DNA of 64,000 nt, taken from contig JAJEGF010000078.1 of assembly GCA_022820025.1 (NCBI GenBank), forward strand, positions 1-64,000, given 5' to 3'. Under the pieces are notes generated by a model. It searched no databases and had not been told where the DNA came from. It was given only the letters and a program-made list of their open reading frames with translations. Shown one piece after another: positions 1,486 through 19,378 of this stretch (position 1 is its first letter; every line of letters begins with the position of its first letter). A program made the position numbers and the translations under genes. The stretch comes from Chloroflexota bacterium (lineage in GTDB: Bacteria; Chloroflexota; UBA11872).

Positions 1486-1496
1486 GTCGCGCCCTC

Positions 1497-5347: not shown

Positions 5348-5379
5348 GTGCCGCTACCTCCTCCTGGAATCGGCCAGCC

Positions 5380-6234
5380 TTAGCTGGACGGGGTGGACGC
5401 GTCGAAGTACATCTCCACGCCCCAGGCGTCCGCGTATTCGCCCAGGCCGTAGTCGGCCACCACGTTCAGCTCCCAGGCCCGCAGCGAGGCGTCGCGCTCG
5501 CGCTCCACCGCCCAGTCCTTGAACATCACCAGCACCAGCGCCTCCTTGGAGAACACCGCGCCCTTGGCGTCGTCGCTGCTGTCCACCGCCAGGTTTCCGG
5601 CCTGGAAGACATCCACGCCGAACGCGCGCGCTACCCAGTGGTTTTCCAGCACCGTCTGCGAGATGCCGGCCGGCACCGGGTAGGTGCCCGTGGGCGAAAT
5701 GTCCGCCGCCAGGTCGTGCGCCTGGTACGGGTGCAGCACCGCGTGGAACGGCTGCGGCGCCGGTTCGGTCGCCCCATGCAGACGCGACACCGCGGCGCGC
5801 AGGTGCCCCATCGAAATGTTCTGGCCAGCCCCGCCCAGCGACGCGCTGAAACTGTCCAGCAGCCCCAGCAGGTCCGTGTCCAGCTTGCGGGCGATCGCGT
5901 CGCCCAGCACCCGCCCGGCCGCCCGGGCCATGTCTTCCTTGGCCGTGCGCAACGCGCGGTCGGTCAGCACGATCTGCGCGCCCACCTCGGCCGGCGTGAT
6001 CGTGACCTTGCTGGTGGTCAGCGTTTGCGGGTTGGTCATGTCCACGCCCTCGGTCAGGGCGGCAGCCGCCACCGTGCCGAACTTGGGAATCTCCAGGCGG
6101 TCGCCGGCCCCGCGCGGGACCCGGTAGGTCCGCACCAGCGGTTCCATCACCGTCCGGTGCATCTGCGTGCGTCGGGCTTCCGCAATCACGGTGTCCACGA
6201 CGTCGCCAATTGAATCGCTCTTCGTAATCGCCAC
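5380..6234 (-). CDS. Phage major capsid protein
   Basis: This encodes 284 residues and is the probable shell protein of the phage head. The start is the GTG at 6234, because GGAGGA (6241-6246) lies exactly 6 nt upstream; the open frame extends about 70 codons further into non-coding sequence with no such signal. The protein shows the usual HK97-like order: a helical N-terminus (IGDVVDTVIAEARRTQM), then strands (YRVPRGAGDRLEIPKFG), a VTITPAEVGAQIVLTDRAL segment, and a long helix (LGDAIARKLDTDLLGLLD). The C-terminal part has FGVDVFQAGNLAV and an ALVLVMFKDW strand. It heads the capsid-to-tail gene group. In standard phages the scaffold gene precedes it directly; here cargo separates the two. Confidence 0.8.
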   Translation of the reverse strand: MAITKSDSIGDVVDTVIAEARRTQMHRTVMEPLVRTYRVPRGAGDRLEIPKFGTVAAAALTEGVDMTNPQTLTTSKVTITPAEVGAQIVLTDRALRTAKEDMARAAGRVLGDAIARKLDTDLLGLLDSFSASLGGAGQNISMGHLRAAVSRLHGATEPAPQPFHAVLHPYQAHDLAADISPTGTYPVPAGISQTVLENHWVARAFGVDVFQAGNLAVDSSDDAKGAVFSKEALVLVMFKDWAVERERDASLRAWELNVVADYGLGEYADAWGVEMYFDASTPSS

Positions 6235-6240
6235 TGCGTG

Positions 6241-6246
6241 TCCTCC
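6241..6246 (-). promoter_or_regulatory. Ribosome-binding site that fixes the capsid GTG start
   Basis: On the minus strand the sequence reads GGAGGA, six bases before GTG at 6234. It is the best Shine-Dalgarno match in the neighbourhood and decides against the longer upstream reading frame. Confidence 0.7.
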
Positions 6247-6777
6247 GGAGCGCCTGCCAATGCGCGGCGCTCGTGACGTCTCGTCATCTGTAGGACGCCC
6301 CATGCGGGCGCTCACTCGGCGAAACCTCGCTTCGCCGGCGCTTGACCTCGTGCAGCAACGGGATCGAACTCCCGGCTCCAGGGGGCGGCGGCTACGCACC
6401 GAGCCCGATGTCCTATCGGGCGATGCGCGAACCCCGCCGCCCCCGTACTCCACGCAAGCGCGCTGGGCTGCGATGACGCTAGGCCGGGACTATCGGTGCC
6501 CCGCCGGCGGGTGGGCAATGCAACGTTGCCGCACGCCGCACGCCGGAATCGGATGACCCAGCCTGCGCCGCCGTAGCCCCGCTTCGGCTGACCGCCGCTC
6601 GTCCGGCTGAATCGATCAGGCCCGAAGCGCTACAGCCTTATTGTACACAAGACGTACACGGCACGCAACCTCTATCGCCGGGCGGTCCCAGGATTCGTTC
6701 CCACCCTTAGTGCTTCCCATGCCGCCGGTCTGCGGCTACGATGCCTGTGACTTCCGGGCAGTCCACGGAGGTGGCGG
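6247..6777. other. 531-nt intergenic region with structured segments
   Basis: No convincing gene is present; open frames here lack ribosome-binding sites and family resemblance. The region contains the hairpin structure at 6359-6444 and, at about 6640-6660, a repeated TGTACAC/CGTACAC element (TTGTACACAAGACGTACAC). It separates the minus-strand capsid gene from the plus-strand cargo genes, so it must hold the promoters for both. Confidence 0.6.
6359..6444 (-). ncRNA. Predicted structured RNA upstream of the capsid gene
   Basis: A perfect 10-bp inverted repeat (GGGGGCGGCG at 6381-6390 with 6435-6444) encloses a smaller CGCA/TGCG pairing and a 6-bp hairpin (CCCGAT 6404-6409 with ATCGGG 6415-6420, 5-nt loop). 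A second 5-bp hairpin with the tRNA-like loop sequence lies beside it (6359-6374, CGGGA-TCGAAC-TCCCG). It sits about 125 nt before the capsid start on the capsid-coding strand, so it could be a leader element. It resembles a tRNA T-arm but does not fold as a complete tRNA. No known RNA family is recognised. Confidence 0.35.
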
Positions 6778-8178
6778 ATGCCGGCGATGCATGCATTCCT
6801 CAGCCACATCACGTTCCGCGCAGTTCTTGCCGTCGCGGCCCTGGCCGCGGCTTTGGCGCTCGTATTCACGGCCACGCCGGGCCTGGCTCAATGGCCCACA
6901 AGTTGTGTCGAACTCAACGACATTGTGGAGGCCCATCTGGGCAACAGTCACAACGTCGGCATCTACCAGCGCGTCTTCGGTGACCAGGCCGAGCAGGCCT
7001 GCCAGCGCGACCACCGCTCCGATGTCCAGGGCACCTTCGCCTGGGCCATCCCGACGCCAGCCCCCGGGCCGGCGCCAGCTCCAGCCCCGGCGCCCGGGCC
7101 GTCTCCAATGCCCGCGCCGGCGCCGATGCCCGCGTCGCCGCCCATCGGCGAGATTTCGGTAGTGGCGGCCTCGCCCCTCGTCTTCCAGGACAGCACCATT
7201 TGGCTGGGGACCACCACCGGCGGCGTTCTCCGCTCGGGAGACGCCGGGCAGAGCTTTACCCAGTCGACGAGCGGACTTCCGAATCTGACCATCAACGCCA
7301 TCGCACCGTCGCCGACCGTGTCGGAAGACGGCGTTGTGCTGGCTGCCACAAACAACGGGATTGGACGTTCAGGCGACCGCGGCGCGACCTGGTCAGCCCC
7401 TGCCGGCCTGCCGGGCGGTCGATTCGGTGCTATCGCGGCGTCGCCTCGATTTAATTCCGACCGCACGTTCTACGCCGCCGCTGATGTCGGAACGCTTTTC
7501 CAGTCAACTAACGGCGGCGTGAATTGGTCGGTGGTATCCAATACCCCGGCAAATGGTCTGCCTCCCGCGACCTACCTGGGCATGCTCACGGTTCGGGGAC
7601 GCGGCGACCGAATCCACATCTTCACGTGGACCGAGGCCAACATATTCTTGAGTGACAATCGTGGACAAAACTTCCGGTCAGTGCTCGACGATAAGTCCCT
7701 GCCGAAGGGCCTCAAGATTACGGCCGTCGCTGTCCATCCTGAATGGAACTACGACAACGTCATCTGGGTAGGTTCCCTGGAGCGAGGCATCTACCGTTCA
7801 GAAAACGGCGGCGAGGACTTCGTGAGCGTGCTCCACAATCCGCGGGGCAGGGACCATGAGCTTGGCCGCATCAACGTGATCGCCCTATCGCCCAATGTCA
7901 CGCGCGACGGAACAATTGCGGCGGGTACCGAGCGTCGTGGTTTCTTCCTGAGCAAGCGCGGTCAGCGCGTCGGAACCGTCGACGACATCGGAGCACCGGG
8001 AAGTTGGGACCACCTCAGCGCCAGCCTGGCGATCCGCAATGTCCGCGGGATCGGCTTCAGTAATGGCTTTGCCGGCGACAATACGATCTACGTCGGCGGT
8101 GAGACGAAGTTTGCGTATTCCGGAAACGCTGCGAGGAACTGGCTGACCTACCCCCATCCGGTTGGGCCCACGAGCTAG
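6778..8178 (+). CDS. Secreted beta-propeller protein with sortilin/BNR-like repeats
   Basis: This encodes 466 residues. GGAGG lies 6 nt before the ATG. A signal peptide covers about residues 10-37, ending in a TPGLAQ cleavage-type site. A short helical domain with two Cys (SCVELNDIV, EQACQRDH) is followed by a Pro/Ala linker (about 90-125). The rest holds at least five repeats of the asp-box/VPS10 type, for example RSGDAGQSF, RSGDRGATWS, QSTNGGVNWS, LSDNRGQNFR and RSENGGEDF. Such propellers occur in extracellular binding proteins and sialidase-like enzymes; no sialidase catalytic set was seen. It is a cargo gene in the phage region and ends at a strong hairpin. Confidence 0.75.
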   Translation: MPAMHAFLSHITFRAVLAVAALAAALALVFTATPGLAQWPTSCVELNDIVEAHLGNSHNVGIYQRVFGDQAEQACQRDHRSDVQGTFAWAIPTPAPGPAPAPAPAPGPSPMPAPAPMPASPPIGEISVVAASPLVFQDSTIWLGTTTGGVLRSGDAGQSFTQSTSGLPNLTINAIAPSPTVSEDGVVLAATNNGIGRSGDRGATWSAPAGLPGGRFGAIAASPRFNSDRTFYAAADVGTLFQSTNGGVNWSVVSNTPANGLPPATYLGMLTVRGRGDRIHIFTWTEANIFLSDNRGQNFRSVLDDKSLPKGLKITAVAVHPEWNYDNVIWVGSLERGIYRSENGGEDFVSVLHNPRGRDHELGRINVIALSPNVTRDGTIAAGTERRGFFLSKRGQRVGTVDDIGAPGSWDHLSASLAIRNVRGIGFSNGFAGDNTIYVGGETKFAYSGNAARNWLTYPHPVGPTS

Positions 8179-8202
8179 CGCTTCGTAGCCGGTAGGCGGA
8201 TT

Positions 8203-8234
8203 CCCGGGGGCGACGGCATACCGTCGCCCCCGGG
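8203..8234. terminator. GC-rich hairpin terminator
   Basis: There is a perfect 14-bp inverted repeat (CCCGGGGGCGACGG at 8203-8216 and its complement at 8221-8234) with a 4-nt CATA loop, 25 nt after the propeller stop codon. No T tract follows on either strand. Confidence 0.6.
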
Positions 8235-8347
8235 CTACATGTGCGCCGCCAGCCGCTGTACTCATGGCCGGCGCGTGCTGTCGGATAGGCTCAATGCCTC
8301 AAACGGCCGAGGTGGCACGCTGCGCCCCACGCGAATCCGGAGCCAAC

Positions 8348-9808
8348 GTGAATCCCAAGAATCTCCTGGTTCTCATGTCGGACGAACACAACCCGCGCAT
8401 GCTGGGAGCGTCTGGCCATCCCGTGGTGCATACCCCCAACCTGGACTCGCTGGCCGACGGCGGTACCACATTCGCCGCCGCCTATTGCAACTCCCCAATC
8501 TGCGTCCCCTCGCGCGCCAGCTTCGCCACCGGCCGCTACGTCCATGAGATCGGGGCGTGGGACAACGCCGCGCCCTTCACCGGCAGCGCGGCCTCCGGCT
8601 GGGGTCATCGGCTCACGGAGAACGGCCACGCCGTAACCACCATCGGCAAGCTCCACCACCGCAACGCCACCGACGACATCGGCTTTCCCGACCAGCGCAT
8701 TCCCATGCACGTCATGCACGGGATCGGGGACGTCTATGGCTGCCTTCGCTCCAACATGCCTGTGACGCGCTACCAGCTCGGTCATGTAGACGAAGCCGGC
8801 GCTACCGACTCCGAGTACATCCGCTACGACACCGCCATCGCCGCCGAAGCCGTCCGTTGGCTCCAAACCGAAGCGCAAACGCACGACAAACCCTGGTGCC
8901 TCTTCGTCTCCTTCACCCTGCCCCACTTCCCCTTCGCCGCCCCGGAACACCACCAGCGCCGCTATCGGCTTGACGACATCGACATGCCCATCGCCTGGTC
9001 ACCCGACCAGTGGCCCATGCACCCGCCGCTGGCCGCCTTTCGCGACGCGCGTGTGCAAACCGCTGAAGACGTTCGCTCGGAGGAGGCCATCCGTCGCGCC
9101 CGCCTCGTCTACTACGCCATGTGCTCATTCGTCGATGAGTTGATCGGGGACGTGATTGGCGCGCTGGACAATGCTGGCCTTGCCGACGACACCCGCATCG
9201 TCTACACCAGCGACCACGGCGAAACCCTCGGCGACTACGGCCTCTGGGGCAAGAGCGTCATGTACGACAGCGCCGCCGCCGTCCCCCTCATCCTCGCCGG
9301 GCCCGACGTGCCATCCGGCCGTTCAGTCGACTGCCCCGTATCGCTGGTCGACCTCGCGCCCACCATCATGGCCGGCACCGGCGTCGAACCCGCCGCTGCG
9401 GACGCTGACCTGCCAGGCACTGACCTCTGGTCAATGGCGGCGGGCGAAGAGCCCGACGATCGCACCGTCTTCAGCGAGTACCACGCCACCGGCTCCGCCT
9501 CCGCCACCTACCTGCTGCGCGACCGCCGTTGGAAATACATCCACTTCGTCGGCCACGATCCCCAGCTATTCGACATGCATTCCGATCCTCACGAGTTGAC
9601 CAATCTGGCCGACCAGCCTGCCCACCGGCCGCGCGTCGCGGACTTTCAGCGCCGCCTGGCCGCCATCTGCGACCCCGACGCCACCGACGCCGCCGCCAAA
9701 GCCGACCAGGCGCGCTGCATCCAGGCCAACGGCGGAGAAGCCGCCGTCCTTGCCGCCGGCCAGCAAATCAACTTCACCCGCGCCCCCGAGCAGTTCCGCC
9801 TCGCGTGA
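8348..9808 (+). CDS. Sulfatase (arylsulfatase / choline-sulfatase type)
   Basis: This is a hydrolase of sulfate esters, 486 residues. The GTG at 8348 is chosen because the family N-terminus (NPKNLLVLMSDEHNPRML, metal-binding Asp) begins there and GGAG precedes it; an ATG at 8264 would add 28 unrelated residues. The active-site signature C-V-P-S-R (about Cys52 to Arg56, followed by ASFATGRY) is the cysteine type, which must be converted to formylglycine. The second metal site is in TSDHGETLGDYGLWGK. No transmembrane or clear signal sequence is seen. No formylglycine-generating enzyme or anaerobic maturase is in the window, so maturation must be provided elsewhere. It lies in the cargo segment between phage genes. 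Confidence 0.88.
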   Translation: MNPKNLLVLMSDEHNPRMLGASGHPVVHTPNLDSLADGGTTFAAAYCNSPICVPSRASFATGRYVHEIGAWDNAAPFTGSAASGWGHRLTENGHAVTTIGKLHHRNATDDIGFPDQRIPMHVMHGIGDVYGCLRSNMPVTRYQLGHVDEAGATDSEYIRYDTAIAAEAVRWLQTEAQTHDKPWCLFVSFTLPHFPFAAPEHHQRRYRLDDIDMPIAWSPDQWPMHPPLAAFRDARVQTAEDVRSEEAIRRARLVYYAMCSFVDELIGDVIGALDNAGLADDTRIVYTSDHGETLGDYGLWGKSVMYDSAAAVPLILAGPDVPSGRSVDCPVSLVDLAPTIMAGTGVEPAAADADLPGTDLWSMAAGEEPDDRTVFSEYHATGSASATYLLRDRRWKYIHFVGHDPQLFDMHSDPHELTNLADQPAHRPRVADFQRRLAAICDPDATDAAAKADQARCIQANGGEAAVLAAGQQINFTRAPEQFRLA

Positions 9809-9892
9809 GCCCCAAAAAAGGGCGCGGTGCTACGCTCCTGAATAAGCGGAAAGCGGAATGATCGCCATCGTCACTTGATTCGGAGCGGCCAG

Positions 9893-10336
9893 ATGGATCA
9901 GTTTCGTCGCGTCGTCGCCGTTGCCCTCATCGTTCTAGCCGTCGCTGTTGGACTCAACCTCATGCTCACCCCCGTCTACCACGACGGCGGCGAAACCTAT
10001 CCCGTCTGGCAGGCGATGAATTGGTTCATGGCCGTGGGCGTGGTCATTGCGCTCCTCATCAGCGTCCATCGCGTCCGCGGCCTCAACGGCGGTCCCAACG
10101 ACCCCGTCACCCGCGAGTACCTGGGCGCCACCGCCCTGTTCCTCGGAGCCACGGGCCTCATCATCATCTTCTACTGGAACTGGCTCTGGACGATGTTCCC
10201 GGAGAGCGAAACGGGCATGGCCGCCCAGTCCCATCTCAACCACTTCCCCTGGATGGACGTGCTCTACACATGGGTCACGGGCGCTGCGGGCCTGTACTTG
10301 TGGCGCGCCGTTGGCCAGAAGATGAGCCGCGACTAG
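9893..10336 (+). CDS. Four-helix membrane protein, hypothetical
   Basis: This encodes 147 residues. The ATG at 9893 has GGAG seven bases upstream; a TTG at 9875 is the alternative. Four hydrophobic segments are visible: VVAVALIVLAVAVGLNLML, WFMAVGVVIALLIS, ALFLGATGLIIIFYW and VLYTWVTGAAGLYLW. Polar loops carry EYLGAT and ETGMAAQSHLNH. The pattern recalls small cytochrome-oxidase-associated or DoxX-like membrane proteins, but no haem or quinone motif is clear. It follows the sulfatase by about 80 nt and may be co-transcribed. Function unknown. Confidence 0.65.
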   Translation: MDQFRRVVAVALIVLAVAVGLNLMLTPVYHDGGETYPVWQAMNWFMAVGVVIALLISVHRVRGLNGGPNDPVTREYLGATALFLGATGLIIIFYWNWLWTMFPESETGMAAQSHLNHFPWMDVLYTWVTGAAGLYLWRAVGQKMSRD

Positions 10337-10430
10337 CGGCCGACAACACCCAACGCCTGACCGTAATCCGCGACATCCCCTCCCGCATCGAAACCAAGGA
10401 CTGATTCCACGAGACCAACCCGTTAGACGT

Positions 10431-10463
10431 CAGACAGTCTGTGTAGGACAATCTGTAATACAG
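10431..10463. promoter_or_regulatory. Probable VapB operator, two palindromes
   Basis: Two perfect 11-bp palindromes, CAGACAGTCTG (10431-10441) and CTGTAATACAG (10453-10463), have centres 22 bp apart, about two helical turns. They end 20 nt before the antitoxin start codon. This is the usual layout of a ribbon-helix-helix antitoxin autoregulatory operator. Confidence 0.5.
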
Positions 10464-10483
10464 AAGGACGTTGCGGAGTTGGG

Positions 10484-10744
10484 ATGGGCGTCAGAACCGT
10501 GCGGCTGGACGACGAGGCCGAGCGAACCCTCGCTGCGGTCCGTAAGCGAACCGGCCTCACCATCTCGGAAGTGCTTAAGCGCGGTCTCCGCGCCTACGAC
10601 ATCGCGTCCCGCGAGGAAGCGGCTACCCGACCCTACGATGTGTATCGCCGACTCGATTTAGGATCCGGCGGCTATGCCGTGGCCCCGGCCAGGGACGCGA
10701 AGGCCGCGATAGCCGAGGTAATCACCGCGAAGCACCGACGGTGA
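10484..10744 (+). CDS. VapB-like ribbon-helix-helix antitoxin
   Basis: This encodes 86 residues. Residues 2-40 fit a ribbon-helix-helix DNA-binding fold (VRTVRLDDEAERTLAAVRKR strand-helix, then LTISEVLKRGLRAYD). The variable C-terminal half (PYDVYRRLDLGSGGYA) would wrap the toxin. The stop codon overlaps the toxin start as GTGA, the usual coupling for this type of pair. The two palindromes upstream are the likely autoregulatory site. In this family the antitoxin neutralises a PIN-domain RNase and represses its own operon. Confidence 0.75.
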   Translation: MGVRTVRLDDEAERTLAAVRKRTGLTISEVLKRGLRAYDIASREEAATRPYDVYRRLDLGSGGYAVAPARDAKAAIAEVITAKHRR

Positions 10745-11154
10745 TTCTGGTCGATACCGGCCCGGTAGTCGCGCTGTTCGATCCCGCCGACGCCGACCAT
10801 CAGCGCTGCGTCGATGTCCTGCGGACGGTCGAGCAGCCAATGGCAACAACCGTGCCCGTCCTCACTGAATCATTTCACCTCTTGCAGCCGGCCAGCGTGG
10901 GCGCGCAACGCCTCATGGATTTTCTGGCCGACGATGGCCTGCGAGTTCTCTTCCTGGATGACGAGGATTTGGCGCGCGCATTCCAGCTCATGGCGCGGTA
11001 CGCGGATGCGCCGATGGACTTGGCTGACGCCTCGCTGGTTGTACTGGCGGAGCGGTTGGAACTGCAAGAGATCTTTACCTTCGACCGCAGTCACTTCTAC
11101 GCCTATCGCATTCAACGCGGCCACCGGCATCTGGCGTTTGAGCTGGTCGGCTAG
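10741..11154 (+). CDS. VapC-like PIN-domain toxin ribonuclease
   Basis: This encodes 137 residues, starting at a GTG that overlaps the antitoxin stop. The PIN-domain acidic set is visible: Asp5 (ILVDTGP), Glu43 (LTESFH), Asp96 (MDLADASLV) and Asp115 (TFDRSHF). All four are present, so the nuclease site looks intact. PIN toxins of this group cleave tRNA or rRNA when freed from the antitoxin. In this setting, inside the phage head module, it could stabilise the cargo segment or act against other phages; both are inferences. Confidence 0.8.
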   Translation: MILVDTGPVVALFDPADADHQRCVDVLRTVEQPMATTVPVLTESFHLLQPASVGAQRLMDFLADDGLRVLFLDDEDLARAFQLMARYADAPMDLADASLVVLAERLELQEIFTFDRSHFYAYRIQRGHRHLAFELVG

Positions 11155-11239
11155 GCGCAGAAGTCCGGGCAAGACCACGTGCTGTGATTCAGGGCCACCA
11201 ATGTTCCCGCGGCCCGGCGCCAGCGTCCGTCGGCTCGCT

Positions 11240-11698
11240 CTAGCTTCTCGCCGCCCGCCGCAATCCCTCAATGTCGATCTTTGACATCTCCAGCAGCGCC
11301 TCCGTCACCGCCTGGGGCGCCGGCGCCATGATCTCCGAGAGTCCGGCCGGAATGACCTGCCACGACAGGCCGAACTGGTCCACAAGCCAGCCGCACGGCT
11401 GCGTCTGACCGCCGTCCGATAGCCGCTCCCAGTAGTAGTCGATCTCGTCCTGTGCCTCACACTCCACCACAAACGAGACCGCCGGCGTAAAGCTGTACAT
11501 CGGCCCGCCGTCCACCGCGCCGAATCGCTGACCGTCAAGCTCGAACTCCACGATCGCATCGTCTTCGGCTGGGCCGGCCGCGATCTTCTGCACGTGCAGG
11601 ACCCTCGAGTTCGGAAAGATCGACACGTAAAACCTCGCGGCTTCCTCGGCCCGGCCGTCGAACCACAGAAACGGGTGAATTCTGGAAATCGATGACAT
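11240..11698 (-). CDS. VOC-family protein (PhnB-like)
   Basis: This encodes 152 residues, the normal length for a PhnB/3-demethylubiquinone methyltransferase-like VOC protein. The N-terminus has RIHPFLWFDGRAEEAARFYVSIF, then a FELDGQRFGAVDGGP strand and a C-terminal GWLVDQFGLSWQVIP, all typical of the group. The two beta-alpha-beta-beta-beta modules form a dimer with a metal or ligand site; substrates are mostly unknown. A GGGAGAAGG sequence lies upstream of the ATG. It is convergent with vapC, which ends 85 nt away. Confidence 0.8.
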   Translation of the reverse strand: MSSISRIHPFLWFDGRAEEAARFYVSIFPNSRVLHVQKIAAGPAEDDAIVEFELDGQRFGAVDGGPMYSFTPAVSFVVECEAQDEIDYYWERLSDGGQTQPCGWLVDQFGLSWQVIPAGLSEIMAPAPQAVTEALLEMSKIDIEGLRRAARS

Positions 11699-11860
11699 AT
11701 GTGTTCACCCTTCTCCCTCTGAGGCCAGGCCGCCGTCACGTTGTCGGCGCGGGTATCACGTTGCGGTCAGCGCCCGGCTGCCGGCCAGCCAACCCATTGT
11801 CGATCCACGATAGTCGCTCGGCCAAAGGCCGCGCCCTCAACTGCGGCCGAACCCGAATAC

Positions 11861-11898
11861 GGACACCGGCCCGGTGCTGAAGCGCCGGGCCGGTGTCC
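11861..11898 (-). terminator. GC-rich hairpin after the scaffold-like gene
   Basis: There is a 17-bp inverted repeat with one G-T mismatch (GGACACCGGCCCGGTGC at 11861-11877, complement at 11882-11898) and a 4-nt TGAA loop. It lies 28 nt past the stop of the minus-strand scaffold-like gene. No T tract follows, so termination strength is uncertain. It would end transcription before the cargo segment. Confidence 0.6.
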
Positions 11899-11926
11899 GT
11901 GGCCAAAGCCAGCAGCCGGCGGCCCG

Positions 11927-12622
11927 CTACGTCAACCCACGTCGTCGCCGGGCGGTTTCGTAGGTCTCCAGGTCCACCTCGCCGCGAGCGAACCCGGCCT
12001 CGATCTGCTGAAACGCGTCCGCTGGCGCGCCCCGGCTCGGAAACAGGTCGGGCGAGGGGTCCAGGCTGCGCCGGTCAGCCAGACGTTCCCGCGCCTCGGC
12101 CTCGCGCTCCGGGTCCGCCGCCGGCGACGCAGTCTCCGTCGCCCCGGCGTCGTCTGGCTCGTCCTCCTGCTCCCTGGCCGCCGCGGGGTTCGCGTGGGAT
12201 CCGGCATCCACGGTCTCCGGCTGCGAGTCCTCGGTCTCTTCGTCTGATTCCGCAGCCGCGTCGGACGTTTCCTTCGATGCGGCGTCCAATGCCGGCGCCT
12301 CTGATGCTTGACCAGTCGTCAGCCCCGCCTTCAGCCAGTCGCCCACTTCGCGCGGGTCCGCCTGCGCAATCCAGGCCAGTAGTTCCGGGTCGATAGCTTG
12401 GCCGGCCTCCGACTCCCAGCGCCGCCGGGCGCGGTTCAGCTCGCGGTCCTTGCGCGACTGCCAGCGGCGTTCCACGGCCTCGATACGCCGCGCCACTTCC
12501 GCGTCCAGCGCCGCCTGAAACGCCTCCCTCGAATCTTCGTGGTCCATCGGTTGGCCGGCGCTCATGGCTTCCGGTCCGTCTGCCTCGGTCAGCGTTGCCG
12601 CCTCGGGGGAATCGCTGCTCAT
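11927..12622 (-). CDS. Acidic helical protein, probable phage scaffold
   Basis: This encodes 231 residues. The start is the ATG at 12622, which overlaps the upstream stop as ATGA; a longer frame reaching 12832 runs through the previous gene. The protein is very acidic and largely helical. It has a charged coiled-coil-like segment (EVARRIEAVERRWQSRKDRELNRARRRWE), a long Glu/Asp/Ala-rich disordered part and a short C-terminal helix (EVDLETYETARRRRG). This composition, and its place after the terminase and before the capsid, fit a head scaffolding protein. No protease motif was seen. The capsid gene is displaced about 5.7 kb away. Confidence 0.6.
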   Translation of the reverse strand: MSSDSPEAATLTEADGPEAMSAGQPMDHEDSREAFQAALDAEVARRIEAVERRWQSRKDRELNRARRRWESEAGQAIDPELLAWIAQADPREVGDWLKAGLTTGQASEAPALDAASKETSDAAAESDEETEDSQPETVDAGSHANPAAAREQEDEPDDAGATETASPAADPEREAEARERLADRRSLDPSPDLFPSRGAPADAFQQIEAGFARGEVDLETYETARRRRGLT

Positions 12623-13350
12623 ACCTGCTCCTTCGTGGGTGCGCCCATTGATTGCATGTGGGCGCTGGTCAGGGCCGATGTCAGATCGGCCTCCGGTGTC
12701 GAATCGGGTCCCGCCTGAATCCGGGTTCCCAGCCTGGCCGCCAGGTCCAGCATTTCCGTCGCCCTTACGGCGTGAATCTCGTTCGCTTCTTCCGCCCAGC
12801 GCGTCAGTCGACGCGCCAGACCCGGGCGGCACGCGCGCAACAACGACGTCAGGTCAAACCGAAGACGGCGCAGCCGAGCCGCATGGCCTTCCGCGCCGAT
12901 CCGCTCATAGCCTTCGCTCACCATCAGCGTCAGCAGTTCGTCGGCCGAGGCGACCCGGCATACGTCCCAGTGCGCCAGGCGTTCCGGCGCAGGCTCGTCA
13001 CAAGCAACTCGCAGGCAGCCTGCGGTCCACTGGCTGCCCGGCGCCCCGCACTGCGGGCAATGCCAGTGGGGTCGCAGCAACAGCCCGCGCCGCACGGCTT
13101 CCTCGTTGAGACGCTGGCTGACGTAGCGTCGGAGAGCCGGCGAGACCTCCGTCCCACGGGACAGATCGGCCACGGCCTTGGTCCAGGCGCGTTCAAATCG
13201 GTCGGCATCGGGCTCGCGCAGAGCCTGGGCCACCGCGGCTCGCGCCGCCGCGAGATCGGCGCTCGCGAATCCGTGCGTTGCCGCGTCGTCATGGCCCGGC
13301 GTCCGGGCCAGAAGCATGAGGCGCCCGTCATGGCGCTGAATTGTCAGCAC
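12619..13350 (-). CDS. Phage protein with a zinc-ribbon-like motif, unknown
   Basis: This encodes 243 residues and is the first gene of the head operon. Near residue 98 it has HWHCPQCGAPGSQW followed by CLRVACDEP, a CxxC...CxxxxC pattern that could bind zinc. The C-terminal half is helical and arginine-rich (LRRLRFDLTSLLRACRPGLARRL). It overlaps the scaffold-like gene by ATGA. A promoter with a perfect TTGACA and an operator matching the one before the portal gene lies upstream. No family is recognised; a head assembly or minor head role is only an inference from position. Confidence 0.6.
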   Translation of the reverse strand: MLTIQRHDGRLMLLARTPGHDDAATHGFASADLAAARAAVAQALREPDADRFERAWTKAVADLSRGTEVSPALRRYVSQRLNEEAVRRGLLLRPHWHCPQCGAPGSQWTAGCLRVACDEPAPERLAHWDVCRVASADELLTLMVSEGYERIGAEGHAARLRRLRFDLTSLLRACRPGLARRLTRWAEEANEIHAVRATEMLDLAARLGTRIQAGPDSTPEADLTSALTSAHMQSMGAPTKEQV

Positions 13351-13444
13351 GTCAACCTTTCGTTGCGATGGGGCGTCGACGCCGGGGATTCCGCCCAGGC
13401 CAGCGATGTCTGAATCATCATTTCCCCGGCGTCAACGCCCTCTG

Positions 13445-13482
13445 TACTCCTACAGAGTATAGCGTCACTGGCAGGCTGTCAA
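13445..13482 (-). promoter_or_regulatory. Promoter and operator of the zinc-motif/scaffold operon
   Basis: On the minus strand a perfect -35 TTGACA (13477-13482) is followed by TATACT or TACTCT (15- or 17-nt spacer). The palindrome TACTC-CTACA-GAGTA (13445-13459) covers the -10 region. The sequence GTACTCCTACAGAGTATA matches the site before the portal gene in 17 of 18 positions. The XRE regulator gene starts 48 nt away in the opposite direction. Confidence 0.65.
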
Positions 13483-13506
13483 CCCCATGGGTACAATGAG
13501 GGCACC

Positions 13507-14046
13507 ATGAGCGAACCGCGGCAGGGGATACGCTTCGCGGCCGTGCTGAACAGCACCCGCCGCGAGGCTGGTTTGTCGTACCGGCAGTTGGCCCAGGCCA
13601 GCGGCATCTCGCACTCGTTCCTCAGCCATGTGGAAAAGGGCGAGCGCCGCGCCCCGCCCGCCAAGGCCATCCTTGATCTGGCCGACGCGCTTGACGCCGA
13701 CCGCCTGACCTTTGCTCTGGCCGCCATCGCCGATCGCGCCGGCAGCGATATCGCCACCACCATGGTCGCGGCTCTGCGGCGCGGCCCTGTCGGTCGCGAC
13801 CTTGATCCGACGGCCGGCGGCGTCCTGATCGAGTCCGGCCCCGCCGACGCCGAAACCGAGCTTGTCCACCTCGCGGACCACGACGACGCGGTCGACGAAC
13901 TCGCCAGCCGTCTGGCCTTCGTCGACCTTCAGCTTGATGCCGGCTTCATGCGCCTGGGGCTGAACGCCGGCGACGACGACCCCATCGTCCTGCTCGTCAG
14001 CGCCCACGCCGGCACTGGCTCGCCAAGCGACCAGACCGAGGCTTAG
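13507..14046 (+). CDS. XRE-family phage regulator (probable repressor)
   Basis: This encodes 179 residues. Residues of about 8-62 form a clear XRE/Cro-type helix-turn-helix (FAAVLNSTRREAGLSYRQLA, then SGISHSFLSHVEKGERRAP). The C-terminal 110 residues are acidic and lack the Ser-Lys catalytic dyad of LexA/CI-type repressors, so RecA-triggered self-cleavage is unlikely. It is encoded on the plus strand inside a minus-strand structural cluster, divergent from the zinc-motif gene and convergent with the large terminase. The matching palindromes at 13445-13459 and 17639-17653 are its most likely binding sites. Its regulatory role is inferred from motif and context. Confidence 0.75.
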   Translation: MSEPRQGIRFAAVLNSTRREAGLSYRQLAQASGISHSFLSHVEKGERRAPPAKAILDLADALDADRLTFALAAIADRAGSDIATTMVAALRRGPVGRDLDPTAGGVLIESGPADAETELVHLADHDDAVDELASRLAFVDLQLDAGFMRLGLNAGDDDPIVLLVSAHAGTGSPSDQTEA

Positions 14047-14068
14047 CCGCGGCGAGGCCTGATCTCCA

Positions 14069-15370
14069 CTACCACGTAATCCGAAACGGAATACTCTGGC
14101 GCGGCGGTCGCTCGATCGCGCCAAAGCGGTCGTACAGCCAGTACGTCAGCGCCTTGATGGCGTGGTTATCACGGTCGATTGGGATCTCCGAGATCGGTTC
14201 CAGATCCGTCGCCTCGTGATATCGGTATAGCCCAAACTCCTCAATCAGGTTCGTGCACTCGGGCGCCACGATCAGGCGCGCGTCGCCACTGGCCGGGTCG
14301 CGCAGGAACGTCCGCAGACGGTCAATTCCCGAACGCAGCGGTACCGAGTGCGAGCGCAGCCGCACGCCCGCCAGCGAGGCCCAAACCTCTATCTGGCTAG
14401 GTGCGGCATGGTGTTGCCGGCCGGCCACGTCAATCACTCCACCACGCACTCGAGGCCACCAGGAGCGCTGGCGGCAGGCCGCAATCACGTCTCCCGCCAC
14501 CTTCCGCCGCAGATACACCTCGTCGATGACCGCTACCTCGGACCCACGTTGCTCAATAGCCAGCACCGCATATGCGCCCGCGTATCCCGGGTCGACCGCC
14601 AGTTCCACCGGTGCGTCGCTGCTCCGCGCGTTGACGTGCACGTGTTTGCGCGGATCGAACTCCCGGAAGACCAGCGTCGCCGGCGGACACGGCACGCCGC
14701 CAAAGCGCTCCATGAAGAGATCCGGAGGGAACAGTGCCTCCAATTCCGCGATCTCGGGATCGTGGCGCCCACCCGGATAGAGCGCCCGGTTCTCCCACGA
14801 GGGGATCGAGAAGGACCGCGCATCCTCGCGCGCGGCCGGCTGCCAGGCGCGAAACCTGTCCGCGTACCAGCCGCGCGACCCTTCGAAAGTTCCGCTCAGC
14901 CACAACCAGCCGCGCCGCTCCGCGATTCGTCCCCGCAGGCGCAGAAACACGGACGGCGGAAGCTGAGCGGCCTCACATGCCAGGATCCCGTCCGGTGCCT
15001 CGCCTGCCAACCGTTCTGGCTCACGCGCGCTTCGCGTAACAATACGCGCCCCGGTGCGCGTGATCAGTTCACACCGGCTGCTGCCCGGGAACCGCACCGA
15101 GGCCACGGCGTCAATCCGCCGATATGCGTCCAGGAGGTATTCGAACTCTGGGCGGCAGAGGTCGTACTCGGGACCCACCAGCCAATAAAGCCGCCCCTCC
15201 ACCAGCCGGCCGAAGAGTTCCATGGCGGCGCTTAGACTCTTGCCGGCCCGCTCGCCCCCGGCAATCAGGCGAATCCGTGCCGGAGAGTCGTGCGCCGCGA
15301 GTTGGGCCGCCGACGGGTCGTAGCCCACCCGCGCCCACAGCAGATCACGCGCCGTGCGCCGTGCGCTCAC
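14069..15370 (-). CDS. Phage terminase large subunit
   Basis: This encodes about 433 residues and is the DNA-packaging motor ATPase/nuclease. The start is uncertain: the GTG at 15370 has GGAAGAG upstream and overlaps the previous gene by 26 nt; an in-frame start at 15439 is possible but less likely. The Walker A motif is GGERAGKS, close to the N-terminus. The Walker B region is probably in ILACEAAQLPPS. The C-terminal nuclease domain has ELAVDPGYAGAYAVL and VIDVAGRQ, the usual acidic sites of the RNase-H fold. The length is slightly below the family's typical 450-550. It follows the small-terminase-like gene. Confidence 0.85.
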   Translation of the reverse strand: MSARRTARDLLWARVGYDPSAAQLAAHDSPARIRLIAGGERAGKSLSAAMELFGRLVEGRLYWLVGPEYDLCRPEFEYLLDAYRRIDAVASVRFPGSSRCELITRTGARIVTRSAREPERLAGEAPDGILACEAAQLPPSVFLRLRGRIAERRGWLWLSGTFEGSRGWYADRFRAWQPAAREDARSFSIPSWENRALYPGGRHDPEIAELEALFPPDLFMERFGGVPCPPATLVFREFDPRKHVHVNARSSDAPVELAVDPGYAGAYAVLAIEQRGSEVAVIDEVYLRRKVAGDVIAACRQRSWWPRVRGGVIDVAGRQHHAAPSQIEVWASLAGVRLRSHSVPLRSGIDRLRTFLRDPASGDARLIVAPECTNLIEEFGLYRYHEATDLEPISEIPIDRDNHAIKALTYWLYDRFGAIERPPRQSIPFRITW

Positions 15371-15776
15371 GTAACTCTTCCAGTAGCGTCTGAAACGTGT
15401 CCTCGCCCTCGACAGGGCGCGCGAACACGTTCCGCACAACCAACTCCACCGCCCAGCGCTCGCCGGCCCGTGCCTTGGTCATGATCGTCTCGCACAGCGA
15501 CTCGCACTCCGCGTTCGCGGCGGCAGTCAGACGCTCGGCGAACACGCTGCCCGCGTCCCCGCTAGCGTCCGGCATGGGTCCGCCTCCCTCGACGCGTGTT
15601 TCGATCTCGCGCCCTTTCACCGACGATTCCCTCGCTGCCGCTCGCCGACATTCGTCGCAACAGCGCGTGCTGCCCGGGCCGCCGGAACAGACCGACAGGC
15701 TGAACCTCAGCTCGACGGAGCATTCCAAGTGCGTGCCCGCCGGCTTGTGCCGCGGCGGTCCCGGTGGCGCCGCCAT
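15345..15776 (-). CDS. Small-terminase-like protein with Cys motif
   Basis: This encodes 143 residues. The C-terminal 75 residues (LTAAANAECESLCETIMTKA, then ERWAVELVVRNVFARP) match the helical pattern of proteins encoded just before large terminase genes, where a small-subunit or packaging-associated role is usual. The N-terminal part has several Cys (LECSVELRFSLSVC, RCCDECRR) that could bind metal. An internal ATG before PDASGDAG is an alternative start. Third-position GC is higher in this frame than in the overlapping frame, which supports it. It overlaps the large terminase gene. Confidence 0.55.
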   Translation of the reverse strand: MAAPPGPPRHKPAGTHLECSVELRFSLSVCSGGPGSTRCCDECRRAAARESSVKGREIETRVEGGGPMPDASGDAGSVFAERLTAAANAECESLCETIMTKARAGERWAVELVVRNVFARPVEGEDTFQTLLEELRERTAHGA

Positions 15777-15879
15777 GTTCTAGGCGACGCGCCCGGATTC
15801 GAAGGACCAGTTCCTGGACGAGTCGCTGAACTCGCAGTTGAATCGCCTCAGGTCGATCCAATGACTCAGGCTTGGACAT
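15562..15879 (-). CDS. Possible small overlapping protein after the portal
   Basis: AGGAG lies seven bases before the ATG at 15879, inside the last codons of the portal gene. The first 35 residues form a plausible helix (QLRVQRLVQELVLRIRARR). From about 15776 on, the frame overlaps the small-terminase-like gene, where codon composition favours the other frame. Either only a short leader peptide is made, or a frameshift links this start to the downstream frame. Low confidence. Confidence 0.3.
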   Translation of the reverse strand: MSKPESLDRPEAIQLRVQRLVQELVLRIRARRLEHGGATGTAAAQAGGHALGMLRRAEVQPVGLFRRPGQHALLRRMSASGSEGIVGERARDRNTRRGRRTHAGR

Positions 15880-17575
15880 CTGTCGTCTCCTGGGTGGGTG
15901 AGGGCTGCAATCCGGCTTGGCCGAGGGCTTCGCGGGCGATGGCGGAGCGGACTTCGGGGGTGTCGATGATTTCGTCGAGGAGGATTTCGTCTTCGACGGC
16001 TTCGGCGTCCTCGATGCCCAGCTTTTCGCGCATGGCCCAGCGGCGGGAGGCGAGGCGGGCGCCGACGAGGCTGGCGGCCAAGGTGCCCTGGGCGACGTCA
16101 TCGGCGGGACCGAGCGGATCGAGTCGCACGCGGACGGCGTGGTAGCCATCGATGTCCTGCGGTCCCAGGCCGATCCAGCCCTGGTCGTCCTCGGCCTCGA
16201 ACACGAACACGGTCTCGCCGATGCGGGTTTCCACCAGCCGCCACATCAGGCGCACGATCCGCTCCAGCGCCTGCTCGGCGTGCCGGGCGACCTGCTGGAA
16301 TGAGACGCGCGCGGTGTTGATGAGCTGGTTGAGCAGGTAGCCGCTGGTGTTGCCGTCGGGCGGGACGCCGAACAGCACGCTGGGCGCGCCGGCCTGGTCG
16401 ATCATGGCGCGGGTTTGGGCGATCAGTTCGTCCAGGTCGGGCGGGGTGCCCTGCCACTGCAGGAATGTCAGGTCCTCGCCCTGGTAGAGGGGCAGGATCT
16501 CGCCGGGCCGAAAGTCGAGCGCGCGCGGGCGGCCGTCGTTGCTGAGGCTGGGGTCGATGGGCGAGAAGTTGGTGATCTTGGGCGTGGGATAGGCGTAGAG
16601 GAACAGCGCGTTCTGCTTCATGGTCAGCAGCTGATCCAGCAGCGGGACCAGGTATTCCATGGAGGCCAGCATGGAGACGCCGGCCTTGGCGGGATCGCGG
16701 CTGGGGGTCTGGTCGCCGTAGGCGTGGACGTAGGGAATGGCCCCGTAGTCGTGCCGGCCGCGGCGGACCAGGTGACCGTCCACCAGGTAGGCGAAGTACT
16801 CGTCGTCCCAGTATTCGACGACGCGGGCGGTGGGACGGGCGCCCACAAGGGGCGCTCCGACGGGAGCAGGGTTCGCCTGGGCGTCGCCGCCGGCCGGTAC
16901 CAGGCGTCCGCTGCGCTTGTCGGTGATCAGCCCGTAGCGGCGTTGCACCAGGTGGCGCGGGCGCTCGGCGATCTCGAGGCAGGCTTCCAGGCCGTCTTCG
17001 CCTTCCAGCGGGTAGAACGTGGTGACGTCGACATCCCGCCAGGCGAGCGGGAAGCGGGCCGATTTCTTGAAGCGCTCGGCCCGCTGGAGGAACGTCTCCG
17101 CAGGCTCATCGGTGTCGGCGGAGCGCCGGGGATAGCCCGCCCAGCGGTCCGGCGCGTAGAGCAGCTTCAGCACGCCGGCGCCGTCCGCCACCATGGCGTC
17201 GATCAACATGCCGAACACGTCGCGGGCGGCTTCGCTGTCCATGCGCCGCAGCGCCGCGTTGGTCCAGCGGGCGCGCAGGTCGGCGCCGGCGCGGGCGGCC
17301 TCCGTGGACTCGGCCGGCGGCACGTGCACCAGCGGGCGGTTGGCGGTGAGGCTGCCGATGACCCGTTTCAGTTGCTCGCGCGCCAGCGGGGTGCGCACCT
17401 CGCGGGCGCTGGTGCGATAGGCGGGCGGGATGTCCACCGGCAGTTCCATGTGCCGCAGCCGGCGCAGGCGTTCGATCCGGGCGTTGCGCTCGCCAAACTC
17501 GGCGAGCAGTTGTTCCTCAAGCTCGCGCAGGTACGCCTCGCTCGGCGGCGGGCGCTGCGCGTCTGACTCTGGCAT
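15866..17575 (-). CDS. Phage portal protein
   Basis: This encodes 569 residues (or 572 from an ATG at 17584). It forms the ring at the unique vertex through which DNA is packaged. Typical portal features are the N-terminal helical part (LKRVIGSLTANRPLVHV), a DVDVTTFYPLEG segment, a long central region with SMLASMEYLVPLLDQLLTMK, and a C-terminal helix-rich crown (EDEILLDEIIDTPEVRS). It is the first gene after the operator-controlled promoter. Around residues 240-250 the sequence PVGAPLVGARPT looks like a small in-frame insertion encoded by a hairpin-forming GC repeat (about 16837-16858). Confidence 0.8.
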   Translation of the reverse strand: MPESDAQRPPPSEAYLRELEEQLLAEFGERNARIERLRRLRHMELPVDIPPAYRTSAREVRTPLAREQLKRVIGSLTANRPLVHVPPAESTEAARAGADLRARWTNAALRRMDSEAARDVFGMLIDAMVADGAGVLKLLYAPDRWAGYPRRSADTDEPAETFLQRAERFKKSARFPLAWRDVDVTTFYPLEGEDGLEACLEIAERPRHLVQRRYGLITDKRSGRLVPAGGDAQANPAPVGAPLVGARPTARVVEYWDDEYFAYLVDGHLVRRGRHDYGAIPYVHAYGDQTPSRDPAKAGVSMLASMEYLVPLLDQLLTMKQNALFLYAYPTPKITNFSPIDPSLSNDGRPRALDFRPGEILPLYQGEDLTFLQWQGTPPDLDELIAQTRAMIDQAGAPSVLFGVPPDGNTSGYLLNQLINTARVSFQQVARHAEQALERIVRLMWRLVETRIGETVFVFEAEDDQGWIGLGPQDIDGYHAVRVRLDPLGPADDVAQGTLAASLVGARLASRRWAMREKLGIEDAEAVEDEILLDEIIDTPEVRSAIAREALGQAGLQPSPTQETTDVQA

Positions 17576-17634
17576 AGGTCCCATTCCAGGTCCGGTACAG
17601 CGGACTAGTGGGACATCGCTGGCAAGCTGGGGCG

Positions 17635-17663
17635 ATTATACTCTATAGGAGTACGAATGGCAA
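17635..17663 (-). promoter_or_regulatory. Sigma-70-type promoter and operator of the portal operon
   Basis: On the minus strand, TTGCCA (17658-17663), a 17-nt spacer and a perfect TATAAT (17635-17640) form a strong promoter reading into the portal gene. The palindrome TACTC-TATAG-GAGTA (17639-17653) fills the spacer and touches the -10, so a bound repressor would block RNA polymerase. It matches the site at 13445-13459. Confidence 0.75.
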
Positions 17664-17708
17664 TAGGGGCAGATGCCGCACGCGGTCACTGCTCAGTTCG
17701 CGGCCGGG

Positions 17709-18347
17709 TTACCCGCTCCAGCTCACCGGCCTGGATATGACGCCCGTGCTGTCCGTGAGGGTGCCGGGGAACTGGCACCGCGGCAGCAGCCGCCGGTCGA
17801 GCAGGCGGTAGCTGGTGGCCGCGCTTCGCAAGCGTCGGCTGGACATGCGCCTGGGATCGATGACGTGTACCGGGAAGTTGAATTCCCGGCGCACCATCTG
17901 GATGACTCCCGTGAAGTCGGAGTCGCCGGTGATGACAAATGCGGCCCGGCCATCACGCTTGGCGGCATCCCGCGTCAGCCAAGCCGCCAGGTTGGCGTCG
18001 GAACCCTTCTCCTCGGTCCGAATCACCTTGACCCGCGCAGACTCGCCAGGCCTCGGATTCGCGAGCGGCATCCAGGCTGGGTACGAGAGAAAGTGACCTT
18101 CGTGAAGTTCCAATTCCGGGATCGTCTGGAGCGCGCGAAGGTACATCTGCTGCCTTAGGCGATTCCCAGGATCTCGCCGACCCGCGATGCGCGCGGTGAA
18201 GTACCGGATTCTGTGAAGCGAGAACCCTGGCTCCAGCAACCGGCGTGCAAGCGATTGAAGGTCCAACCACCAATGCGGCGTGTCGGCAAGAGCGCAGTGG
18301 TAGAGGTTGAGACCATCCACATACACGTTGGCAGGAGCGCCGTGCAT
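17709..18347 (-). CDS. NYN-domain (PIN-like) nuclease
   Basis: This encodes 212 residues. The NYN/LabA pattern is complete: VYVDGLNLYH near the N-terminus, EKGSDANLAAWLTRDA in the middle and FVITGDSDFTGVIQMV after it. These give the conserved aspartates of a metal-dependent PIN-like RNase active site. Such proteins process or degrade RNA, and some are linked to defence islands. It lies directly upstream of the phage promoter on the same strand, with no operon partner. Whether it belongs to the phage element or to the host is not clear. Confidence 0.8.
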   Translation of the reverse strand: MHGAPANVYVDGLNLYHCALADTPHWWLDLQSLARRLLEPGFSLHRIRYFTARIAGRRDPGNRLRQQMYLRALQTIPELELHEGHFLSYPAWMPLANPRPGESARVKVIRTEEKGSDANLAAWLTRDAAKRDGRAAFVITGDSDFTGVIQMVRREFNFPVHVIDPRRMSSRRLRSAATSYRLLDRRLLPRCQFPGTLTDSTGVISRPVSWSG

Positions 18348-18709
18348 TGGGTCTCGCTACGCGTGTCTGCTGACTGAATCCGGGCTACACCCCGATCCAA
18401 CTGATGACAGCGCCGGACGCCCGCCCCCAAGGCCGCCAATAGACTCCGGGTTCTCGCCCGCTCCCGGAATCGCGTGTCGCTTGTCGTCGCAGATTCCGGT
18501 GATGCCTTTAAACATGGCAGCGACCGCCCGCGGGCGGTCGCTATCCCAGCCGCCGAAGAGACTGGGGGGGTTACGGAGCAGGTGCCACATGCTCCCCGCA
18601 CTCCAAACGTCTCACTGTCCCCTATTCCTGTCAAGACTCGTTCCGAGCCACGCTGTTTCGCCTTTACTAGACTCCCAGGCTTCCGCCGGTCTTGGGAGTT
18701 CCTGTAGAA
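18348..18709. other. 362-nt intergenic region with hairpins
   Basis: No gene is seen. The region holds the 24-bp palindrome at 18519-18542. It also holds a 7-bp hairpin (ACTCCCA 18671-18677 with TGGGAGT 18693-18699) that would hide the GGGAG ribosome-binding sequence of the following propeller gene. It also must contain the promoters of the two divergent genes on either side. Confidence 0.55.
18519..18542. repeat. Perfect 24-bp GC palindrome
   Basis: The half-site AGCGACCGCCCG is followed directly by its complement. It is far from any gene end, so a terminator role is not obvious; a protein-binding site or REP-like unit is possible. Confidence 0.5.
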
Positions 18710-19378
18710 ATGCACAGCGTGACCGACCGCTGGATTACCCCCGGCCCGCAGCCCAACGGCCTGCAGGCGGCTGACGACGGCCTGTGGGTGATCGACCAGG
18801 ACGACTGTCACCTCTACAAGCTGGACTACGCGGACGGTTCGGTATTGGCGCGCGTACCGACCGAGACCAGCCACGCCAGCGGCGTCACCATTGGCGGCGG
18901 TTACCTGTGGGTGTCCTCAACCATCGGGTCTCGCATCTTCAAGCTGAACGACGACGGGACGACCGTGGCCCACTACGACACTCCCGGCAAGGGCGTCGTG
19001 GCCTTCGTCGACCAGGCCAACGCCCAGGTCACCGGCGCGCACGGTCTGCAGTGGGTGGACGATCGCCACATGTGGATGGCCGTGCCGCCGGCGCAGCAAC
19101 TGTTCCTGGTTGACCCGCGCGACATGTCGGTGCATTACTCGATCCCCACGCCCAGCCACCGCCCGCACGGCGTGTTCGTGGCCGACGGCCACGTCTGGTG
19201 CTCCGACGTGGGACTGCGCCAGATCCATAAGCTCGACCCGGCCACCGGTGAAATCCGGGCCGCTATCGACGTGCCCGACCCCGAAGTCCACGGCATGACC
19301 CTGCACAACGACCAAATCTGGTTCTGCTGCGCCGTCACGCGCCGCGTCTGCACCGTCCCGCTGCCCGACGGGAGCTAG
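18710..19378 (+). CDS. Beta-propeller protein (SMP-30/NHL/Vgb-like), no signal peptide
   Basis: This encodes 222 residues. The ATG at 18710 is used; GGGAG lies 11 nt upstream inside a hairpin, and a TTG at 18692 is the alternative. The chain repeats a blade unit, visible as GLWVIDQDDCHLYKLD, YLWVSSTIGSRIFKLN, HMWMAVPPAQQLFLVD and HVWCSDVGLRQIHKLD. This is the pattern of streptogramin-lyase-like or NHL propellers. Five blades are a short propeller. No signal peptide is visible, so it is probably cytoplasmic. It is convergent with the next gene, which starts its stop 9 nt away. Enzymatic role unknown. Confidence 0.7.
   Translation: MHSVTDRWITPGPQPNGLQAADDGLWVIDQDDCHLYKLDYADGSVLARVPTETSHASGVTIGGGYLWVSSTIGSRIFKLNDDGTTVAHYDTPGKGVVAFVDQANAQVTGAHGLQWVDDRHMWMAVPPAQQLFLVDPRDMSVHYSIPTPSHRPHGVFVADGHVWCSDVGLRQIHKLDPATGEIRAAIDVPDPEVHGMTLHNDQIWFCCAVTRRVCTVPLPDGS

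Follow-up and report, generated by a model that had tools for sequence, protein, structure and literature searches.

What does an XRE-family regulator control when its gene lies among operons for phage-like terminase, portal and capsid proteins, and what are those operons for? This question is raised by a 64,000-nucleotide (nt) stretch of DNA from a Chloroflexota bacterium (positions 1 to 64,000 of contig JAJEGF010000078.1, assembly GCA_022820025.1), called the window below. In our view the principal part of a domesticated phage is probably encoded in the window, one that an entire bacterial family has retained and that is most likely a gene transfer agent (GTA), a virus-like particle which bacteria maintain and may employ to exchange DNA; its XRE protein would act as a repressor directly on the promoters of the structural operons. 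The regulatory part of this interpretation is carried by a 17-bp inverted repeat that lies in the structural promoters, has been conserved among relatives, and is present also upstream of unlinked lysin and terminase genes.

The shared operator

Three units are encoded on the minus strand of the window: the portal gene, followed by an open reading frame (ORF) in the position of a small terminase subunit (TerS) and by the gene for the large subunit (TerL); the genes zn and scaf, whose names come partly from an earlier, preliminary description of this DNA; and the capsid gene with five tail-like ORFs. The XRE gene lies on the plus strand between TerL and zn. The regulatory features are as follows, with scores and ranks from a search of the whole window with a motif built from 38 sites of other genomes; operators are given without strand.

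17638 to 17654: portal-promoter operator, lying between the -35 and -10 elements (score 21.2, rank 1)
13444 to 13460: operator between XRE and the zn-scaf unit, covering the zn-scaf -10 (score 18.9, rank 2)
6643 to 6659: third operator, diverged, in the capsid-operon promoter (score 15.6, rank 4; 14.0 without capsid sites in the training set)
13492 to 13497, plus strand: XRE -10 element TACAAT, read from the sequence and kept in relatives
13507 to 14046, plus strand: XRE-family regulator, 179 amino acids (aa), helix-turn-helix (HTH) only by Pfam

The preliminary description had reported two matching palindromes, each overlapping a sigma-70-like promoter on the minus strand, and both parts of this claim hold, the two promoters being close to consensus. 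The 18-mer GTACTCCTAYAGAGTATA matches the window exactly twice, at 13444 to 13461 (plus) and 17637 to 17654 (minus), and never in 100 dinucleotide shuffles. A genome-wide search at up to three mismatches finds it only in the cluster, with no further copy in the 3.63-Mb source genome (G000), and the exact core TACTC-N5-GAGTA has two more copies in that genome, both outside the cluster. The portal promoter reads TTGCCA (17658 to 17663)-N17-TATAAT (17635 to 17640) and the zn-scaf promoter TTGACA (13477 to 13482)-N17-TACTCT (13454 to 13459). The near-identity of the two copies, given as 17 of 18 bases, is real, but the spacer that they share is inessential, for it varies in relatives while the arms persist; the 17-bp consensus across relatives is GTAYnC-N5-GnRTAC. 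The capsid site had been missed. It accompanies a third minus-strand promoter, TTGCGT (6663 to 6668)-N17-TACAAT (6640 to 6645). The start of the XRE gene is 47 nt from the palindrome core, and the XRE -10 and zn-scaf -35 elements lie 9 bp apart in opposite directions, the two promoters overlapping.

Comparison was made within family f1 (19 genomes), where g1 denotes the genus of the window and g2 a sister genus. The XRE/zn-scaf promoter has the site in 18 of 18 genomes, the capsid-operon promoter has it in the same place in 18 of 18, and the portal promoter has it in all 12 g1 genomes. Majority agreement is 0.86 and 0.85 in the arms and 0.47 in the spacer at the portal site, 0.88 and 0.89 in the arms and 0.57 in the spacer at the zn-scaf site, and 0.81 and 0.85 in the arms of the capsid site. 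When capsid sites were removed from the motif, the capsid site still ranked first in its own locus in 8 of the 12 genomes first examined and between 2 and 5 in the remaining four, whose loci also hold the portal and zn sites; in six further capsid promoters, found blind, it ranked first in each locus (scores 13.9 to 17.9). The XRE gene itself is adjoined by zn in 16 of 18 genomes and by scaf in 17 of 18, with G004 lacking both.

A motif of 42 sites from the XRE/zn-scaf, capsid and portal units was then applied to the other units; the control of 500-nt windows beside the lysin and TerL test contains true sites and gives no clean null. Where TerL is contiguous with the portal gene and the TerS-position ORF, none of the 13 genomes has a site in the gap (best score at most 1.8). 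Where TerL is detached, in G005, G007, G010 and G011, a site stands upstream in all four visible cases (21.3, 23.8, 21.7 and 19.9); G004 has a site 418 nt before a contig end, with no first-type TerL visible. In several genomes the detachment came about by an insertion carrying a type-ISP restriction gene. Such a gene is found near detached terminase sites, accompanied in G005 by ImuA/ImuB-like genes.

The lysin, an M23+SLT protein whose closest PHROG is an internal virion protein with an endolysin domain, is encoded downstream of the capsid and tail genes in G001 and g2. No site lies directly upstream of the gene in these six capsid-linked loci, and G016 has one downstream. In g1 the gene is unlinked, and overlapping pairs of sites precede it in all six readable loci (best of pair 12.2 to 21.4). 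Three more g1 matches are on cut contigs, extra copies in G010 and G013 have no site, and the lysin search gave no match in G003 or G012. The G000 lysin (652 aa) is on contig C45, with overlapping operator sites about 350 nt upstream. A second TerS-TerL pair is present in seven g1 genomes, each with a site (best scores 17.0 to 20.0); its TerL is 64-66% identical to the first, and fragments exist also in G003, G005 and G011. In G000 this operon occupies 413 to 1904 of contig C16, encodes a TerL with 66% identity and has its own operator site. With sites at XRE/zn-scaf, portal, capsid, lysin and the second TerS-TerL pair, the candidate regulon of G000 comprises five promoters on three contigs. 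The proposed operator linking the XRE gene to two structural units is supported by comparison for portal and zn-scaf and extends to the capsid operon, the unlinked lysin gene and the second terminase operon.

Distribution and selection of the particle genes

The structural and packaging genes of the window, all on the minus strand, are these.

15866 to 17584, minus strand: portal protein (phrog_156, E = 1.3e-5, a weak match)
15345 to 15575, minus strand: ORF in TerS position, 76 aa (assigned by position; no Pfam or PHROG family)
14069 to 15370, minus strand: TerL (phrog_2, E = 6e-21)
12619 to 13350, minus strand: zn, 243 aa, first gene of the zn-scaf unit (no Pfam or PHROG family)
11927 to 12622, minus strand: scaf, 231 aa (scaffold label from the preliminary description and position; no PHROG family)
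5380 to 6234, minus strand: major capsid protein (phrog_544, E = 8e-12)
92 to 5347, minus strand: rest of the capsid operon, tail-like by position, with only weak family matches (ORFs at 5093 to 5347, 3876 to 5096, 1497 to 3875, 433 to 1485 and 92 to 433)

Terminase, portal and capsid genes of phage derivation are therefore at hand, as expected of a GTA. The ORFs in TerS position (n = 15) are 58 to 90 aa long, the intact ones 76 to 90 aa; two of three scanned had no Pfam family at E ≤ 1, and the third had a sub-threshold match to HTH_16 (E = 0.0079, 16.7 bits, cut-off 22). The short ORF upstream of TerL is a candidate TerS, named by its position.

The portal gene was sought in 61 genomes, 19 from f1 and 42 others, and was found in 18 of the 19 and in none of the 42, as one copy each. 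Among 301 Chloroflexota genomes the capsid gene was found in 17, all of them f1, with one match each and no internal stop; G010 also has a capsid gene. The XRE gene has one homologue in 18 of the 19 f1 genomes. The only family member without portal, capsid and XRE is G002, a 76% complete bin from which rpoB is also missing. Portal and capsid matches are open frames free of internal stops, and ratios of nonsynonymous to synonymous substitution rates (dN/dS, over up to seven genome pairs) are 0.02-0.09 for capsid, 0.06-0.15 for portal, 0.07-0.16 for TerL, 0.17-0.30 for XRE and 0.08-0.47 for scaf; rpoB gives 0.04-0.10. The deep split between g2, G001 and the other g1 genomes agrees among gene trees where G001 is present. 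Family-wide, single-copy portal, XRE and capsid genes with such ratios fit vertical maintenance under purifying selection.

The loci are also dispersed and form no excisable unit. On the single contig of G001, 410 kb separate the XRE locus from the portal gene, and in G000 the lysin and the second TerL are on contigs of their own. Between scaf and capsid lie host-type genes, including sulfatase-like, PIN-like and VOC-like ORFs (read from translations), whose relatives hold the same place in many genomes. Among the window proteins scanned, which did not cover all of its ORFs, none was recognized as an integrase or a replication protein.

In the viral_contigs collection the portal has no relative, the capsid has one (41%) and TerL has 18 (best 44%), six of whose loci carry a portal at 20-24%; among phage records the best matches are 28.9% for TerL and 36% for capsid. 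The idea of a podovirus-like particle was dropped because the best capsid match, a Pelagibacter phage, is annotated with a tape measure gene. The predicted structure of the ORF at 3876 to 5096 (predicted local distance difference test score, pLDDT, 33.9) is unusable. Ten large ORFs further along the window belong to housekeeping or metabolic families or to no family in a family scan, and an NYN-domain protein (phrog_7929) encoded at 17709 to 18347, upstream of the portal gene, is there in some relatives only.

The regulator and competing explanations

The XRE protein matches HTH_31 (5.5e-13) and HTH_3 (7e-10), both above cut-off, and so has a Cro/CI-type HTH. Pfam gives HTH families only and no S24 peptidase domain, in agreement with the earlier statement that it has no LexA/CI-type peptidase part; it does not qualify as a self-cleaving repressor of that type. 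The 18 proteins are 41-90% identical overall. The core of the HTH region is invariant in all 18, with GxSHSFLSHxEKGERR in most, which agrees with the persistence of the site in both genera. A structure predicted from one sequence (mean pLDDT 54.8) is usable only for the HTH, and comparison with phage sequences gave only HTH-range matches.

Sites, their positions, their conservation and their co-occurrence with XRE are direct observations; the mechanism that we propose goes beyond them. The portal-TerS-TerL, zn-scaf and capsid-tail units, with the lysin and, in part of g1, the second TerS-TerL pair elsewhere, would form one regulon in which a single 17-bp inverted repeat recurs in every unit promoter, at or next to its -10. 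A dimer of the divergently encoded XRE protein would bind this site and block RNA polymerase at all units, keeping particle production off in most cells. The positions of the sites suggest repression as the effect. Since the XRE and zn-scaf promoters overlap in opposite directions, a two-state switch is plausible, in which repressor bound there would shut off zn-scaf while the XRE promoter stayed accessible. On release, particles would presumably form and might carry host DNA.

Several observations weigh against this interpretation. The GTA assignment is drawn from the genes, and the choice of XRE as the putative binder of the sites is made on sequence. Shuffled windows (n = 100) had a mean best score of 11.6, and the largest reached 20.6. 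The match ranked third in the window, at 60159 to 60175 (17.1) in a glycoside-hydrolase-like gene, is probably due to chance and outscores the capsid site. The spacer of the capsid site is conserved nearly to the level of its arms (0.70), the capsid site of G010 is weak (6.1 bits), and one half-site overlaps the -10, so that part of the conservation of the site is conservation of the promoter. None of six g2 portal promoters has an XRE-type site (best scores -1.2 to 9.7); all six have instead a palindrome GTTAC-N4-GTAAC, and a second regulator probably took over the portal in this genus. Gene trees disagree within g1, the splits in common with rpoB being 4 of 15 for portal, 5 of 15 for XRE and 9 of 12 for TerL, and recombination inside the genus is therefore likely. 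A single-copy TerL had to be rejected in view of the paralogue in seven g1 genomes.

The main result of this kind concerns the exact core. In 13 g1 genomes it has 36 copies (one for a reversed-pattern control), of which 14 are in the cluster and 22 outside, contrary to a regulon confined to the cluster. All of the 19 outside sites that were fetched are parts of intergenic repeats, which are dispersed and form two families. In each family promoter-like elements surround the site, and genes nearby include those for aldehyde dehydrogenase, aldo-keto reductase, MurT and MatE proteins. Such sites could be decoys, could have brought further host genes under control, or could simply have been inherited along with the repeat. 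The preliminary description had held that many palindromes far from phage genes would speak against a shared operator; this is partly the case for the core. As a separate observation, the g2 capsid promoter has, after its XRE-type site, a palindrome similar to GTTAC..GTAAC.

The alternative that survives best, itself unlikely, is a domesticated particle with a job other than moving DNA, such as killing or delivery, under the same XRE switch. Conservation and regulation would look alike in that case, and the regulon includes a peptidoglycan-degrading protein, the M23+SLT lysin. However, terminase, portal and capsid are all under purifying selection, as expected if DNA packaging has been kept, and a second, equally controlled terminase pair exists.

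Next comes the possibility, also an unlikely one, that a different regulator with a more global role binds the palindrome, XRE being a bystander or only one of its targets. The outside core sites near host-gene promoters favor it. It accounts poorly for the joint presence of XRE and site in 18 of 18 genomes, even with XRE far from the portal gene, for the invariant core of the HTH region, and for the restriction of the 18-mer to the cluster of G000.

A protein bound on or between the -35 and -10 elements usually blocks polymerase, and this is where the sites lie. For this reason XRE is improbable as an activator through these sites, even though GafA and GafYZ, which drive the known GTA clusters, are direct activators (PMC11150451). 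A normal prophage with a phage repressor, whether intact or in decay, is strongly disfavored and was rejected. It is favored by the phage structural genes with an XRE gene among them. Against it are their single copies in all but one f1 genome and in no sampled genome beyond the family, low dN/dS, open portal and capsid frames, intervening host-type genes, separate loci and the lack of integrase or replication genes among the proteins scanned (not every ORF). In place of the phage or prophage setting first proposed, the genes are dispersed and have been inherited vertically throughout a bacterial family.

Leader RNAs and known systems

Two complementary sequences connect the leaders of the zn-scaf and portal units.

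13370 to 13440, minus strand: hairpin in the zn-scaf leader (from alignment and fold prediction), with the invariant 12-mer GACATCGCTGGC at 13399 to 13410
17612 to 17623, minus strand: portal-leader 12-mer GCCAGCGATGTC, complementary to the zn-scaf 12-mer at every position (from sequence)

Portal leaders begin with GCCAGCGATGTC in 12 of 12 g1 genomes, and the XRE/zn-scaf region holds this 12-mer in the opposite sense, again in 12 of 12; zn-scaf RNA therefore carries the complement of the portal-leader 12-mer. The 12-mer occurs three times in G000, twice in the cluster, and is present at four of five detached TerL-type sites; among random pieces of the window, 2 of 3000 share 12 nt with the portal leader. 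In the zn-scaf leader alignment (n = 11, with G004, which has no zn, left out) the 12-mer is invariant inside the hairpin, 5 of 19 predicted pairs are changed on both sides, and G001 forms the stem from other sequence. In the RNAalifold prediction some of the 12-mer is paired within an inner stem, and the covariation term is small (-0.36). The whole-leader duplex energy in G000 is no better than chance (-47.0, shuffle mean -49.5, 313 of 500 shuffles as low). The portal-leader fold differs among genomes, and a stem over the start codon varies little and depends on the ATG used. Rfam gave no match at E up to 0.5 in window positions 5000 to 19000. We advance tentatively, as possible, a Chloroflexota GTA whose structural, packaging and lysis units are repressed directly via one XRE operator and in which, in addition, the hairpin 12-mer of zn-scaf RNA forms a duplex with the portal mRNA at its 5' end, and likewise with mRNAs of detached TerL genes, and thereby determines when, or in what ratio to each other, portal and zn-scaf products are made. 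That the zn-scaf 12-mer is a protein-binding site is an equal alternative to RNA pairing. The capsid leader, about 400 nt (6235 to 6640), has a conserved start, TGTAGCGCTTCGG, and likely hairpins.

In the lambda-type CI switch, divergent overlapping promoters flank an operator that is served by an HTH repressor. The XRE region has the same layout and an HTH regulator, but its protein has no peptidase domain by Pfam and its putative targets are structural units, not early genes.

Among GTAs, in Caulobacter, too, a domesticated phage cluster (CcGTA) is kept off by a dedicated HTH repressor and has accessory genes at other loci. That repressor, RogA, resembles LexA, has a degenerate domain of the S24 type and binds GGAA-N4-TTCC sites at the promoter of the gafYZ activator genes rather than at the structural cluster (PMC9632790, PMC11150451), one step higher than the present candidate, a short HTH protein whose presumed site is in the structural promoters themselves. 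The Rhodobacter RcGTA likewise has a short TerS directly upstream of TerL, dispersed genes and vertical inheritance (PMC6854486, PMC11841831), although its TerS-type proteins, compared by description, are 92-125 aa long, against 76-90 aa for the intact ORFs here (PMC6854486). The Faecalibacterium FpGTA, for which particles and packaged DNA have been shown, resembles our case by description as a set of GTA-like operons outside Alphaproteobacteria: it consists of two unlinked operons, with a TerS that has no obvious DNA-binding domain and lysis genes in the second operon (PMC12946183). It belongs to another phylum and has no common operator described in the portion of that paper used (PMC12946183).

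Few GTAs are known outside Alphaproteobacteria (PMC12946183), and a literature search, judged by titles and the starts of abstracts, yielded nothing about a GTA in Chloroflexota. The excerpts of the GTA literature examined describe no case in which all structural units have direct operators. The gene set is a probable GTA, new in its proposed regulation. By providing a signature, a one-step operator regulon would allow scattered GTA genes to be collected with no data other than the genome sequence; it was through the motif that the capsid promoter, the lysin unit and the second terminase pair were reached here. If the interpretation is true, capsid-mediated gene transfer would extend further than now known, to an entire family of uncultured Chloroflexota.

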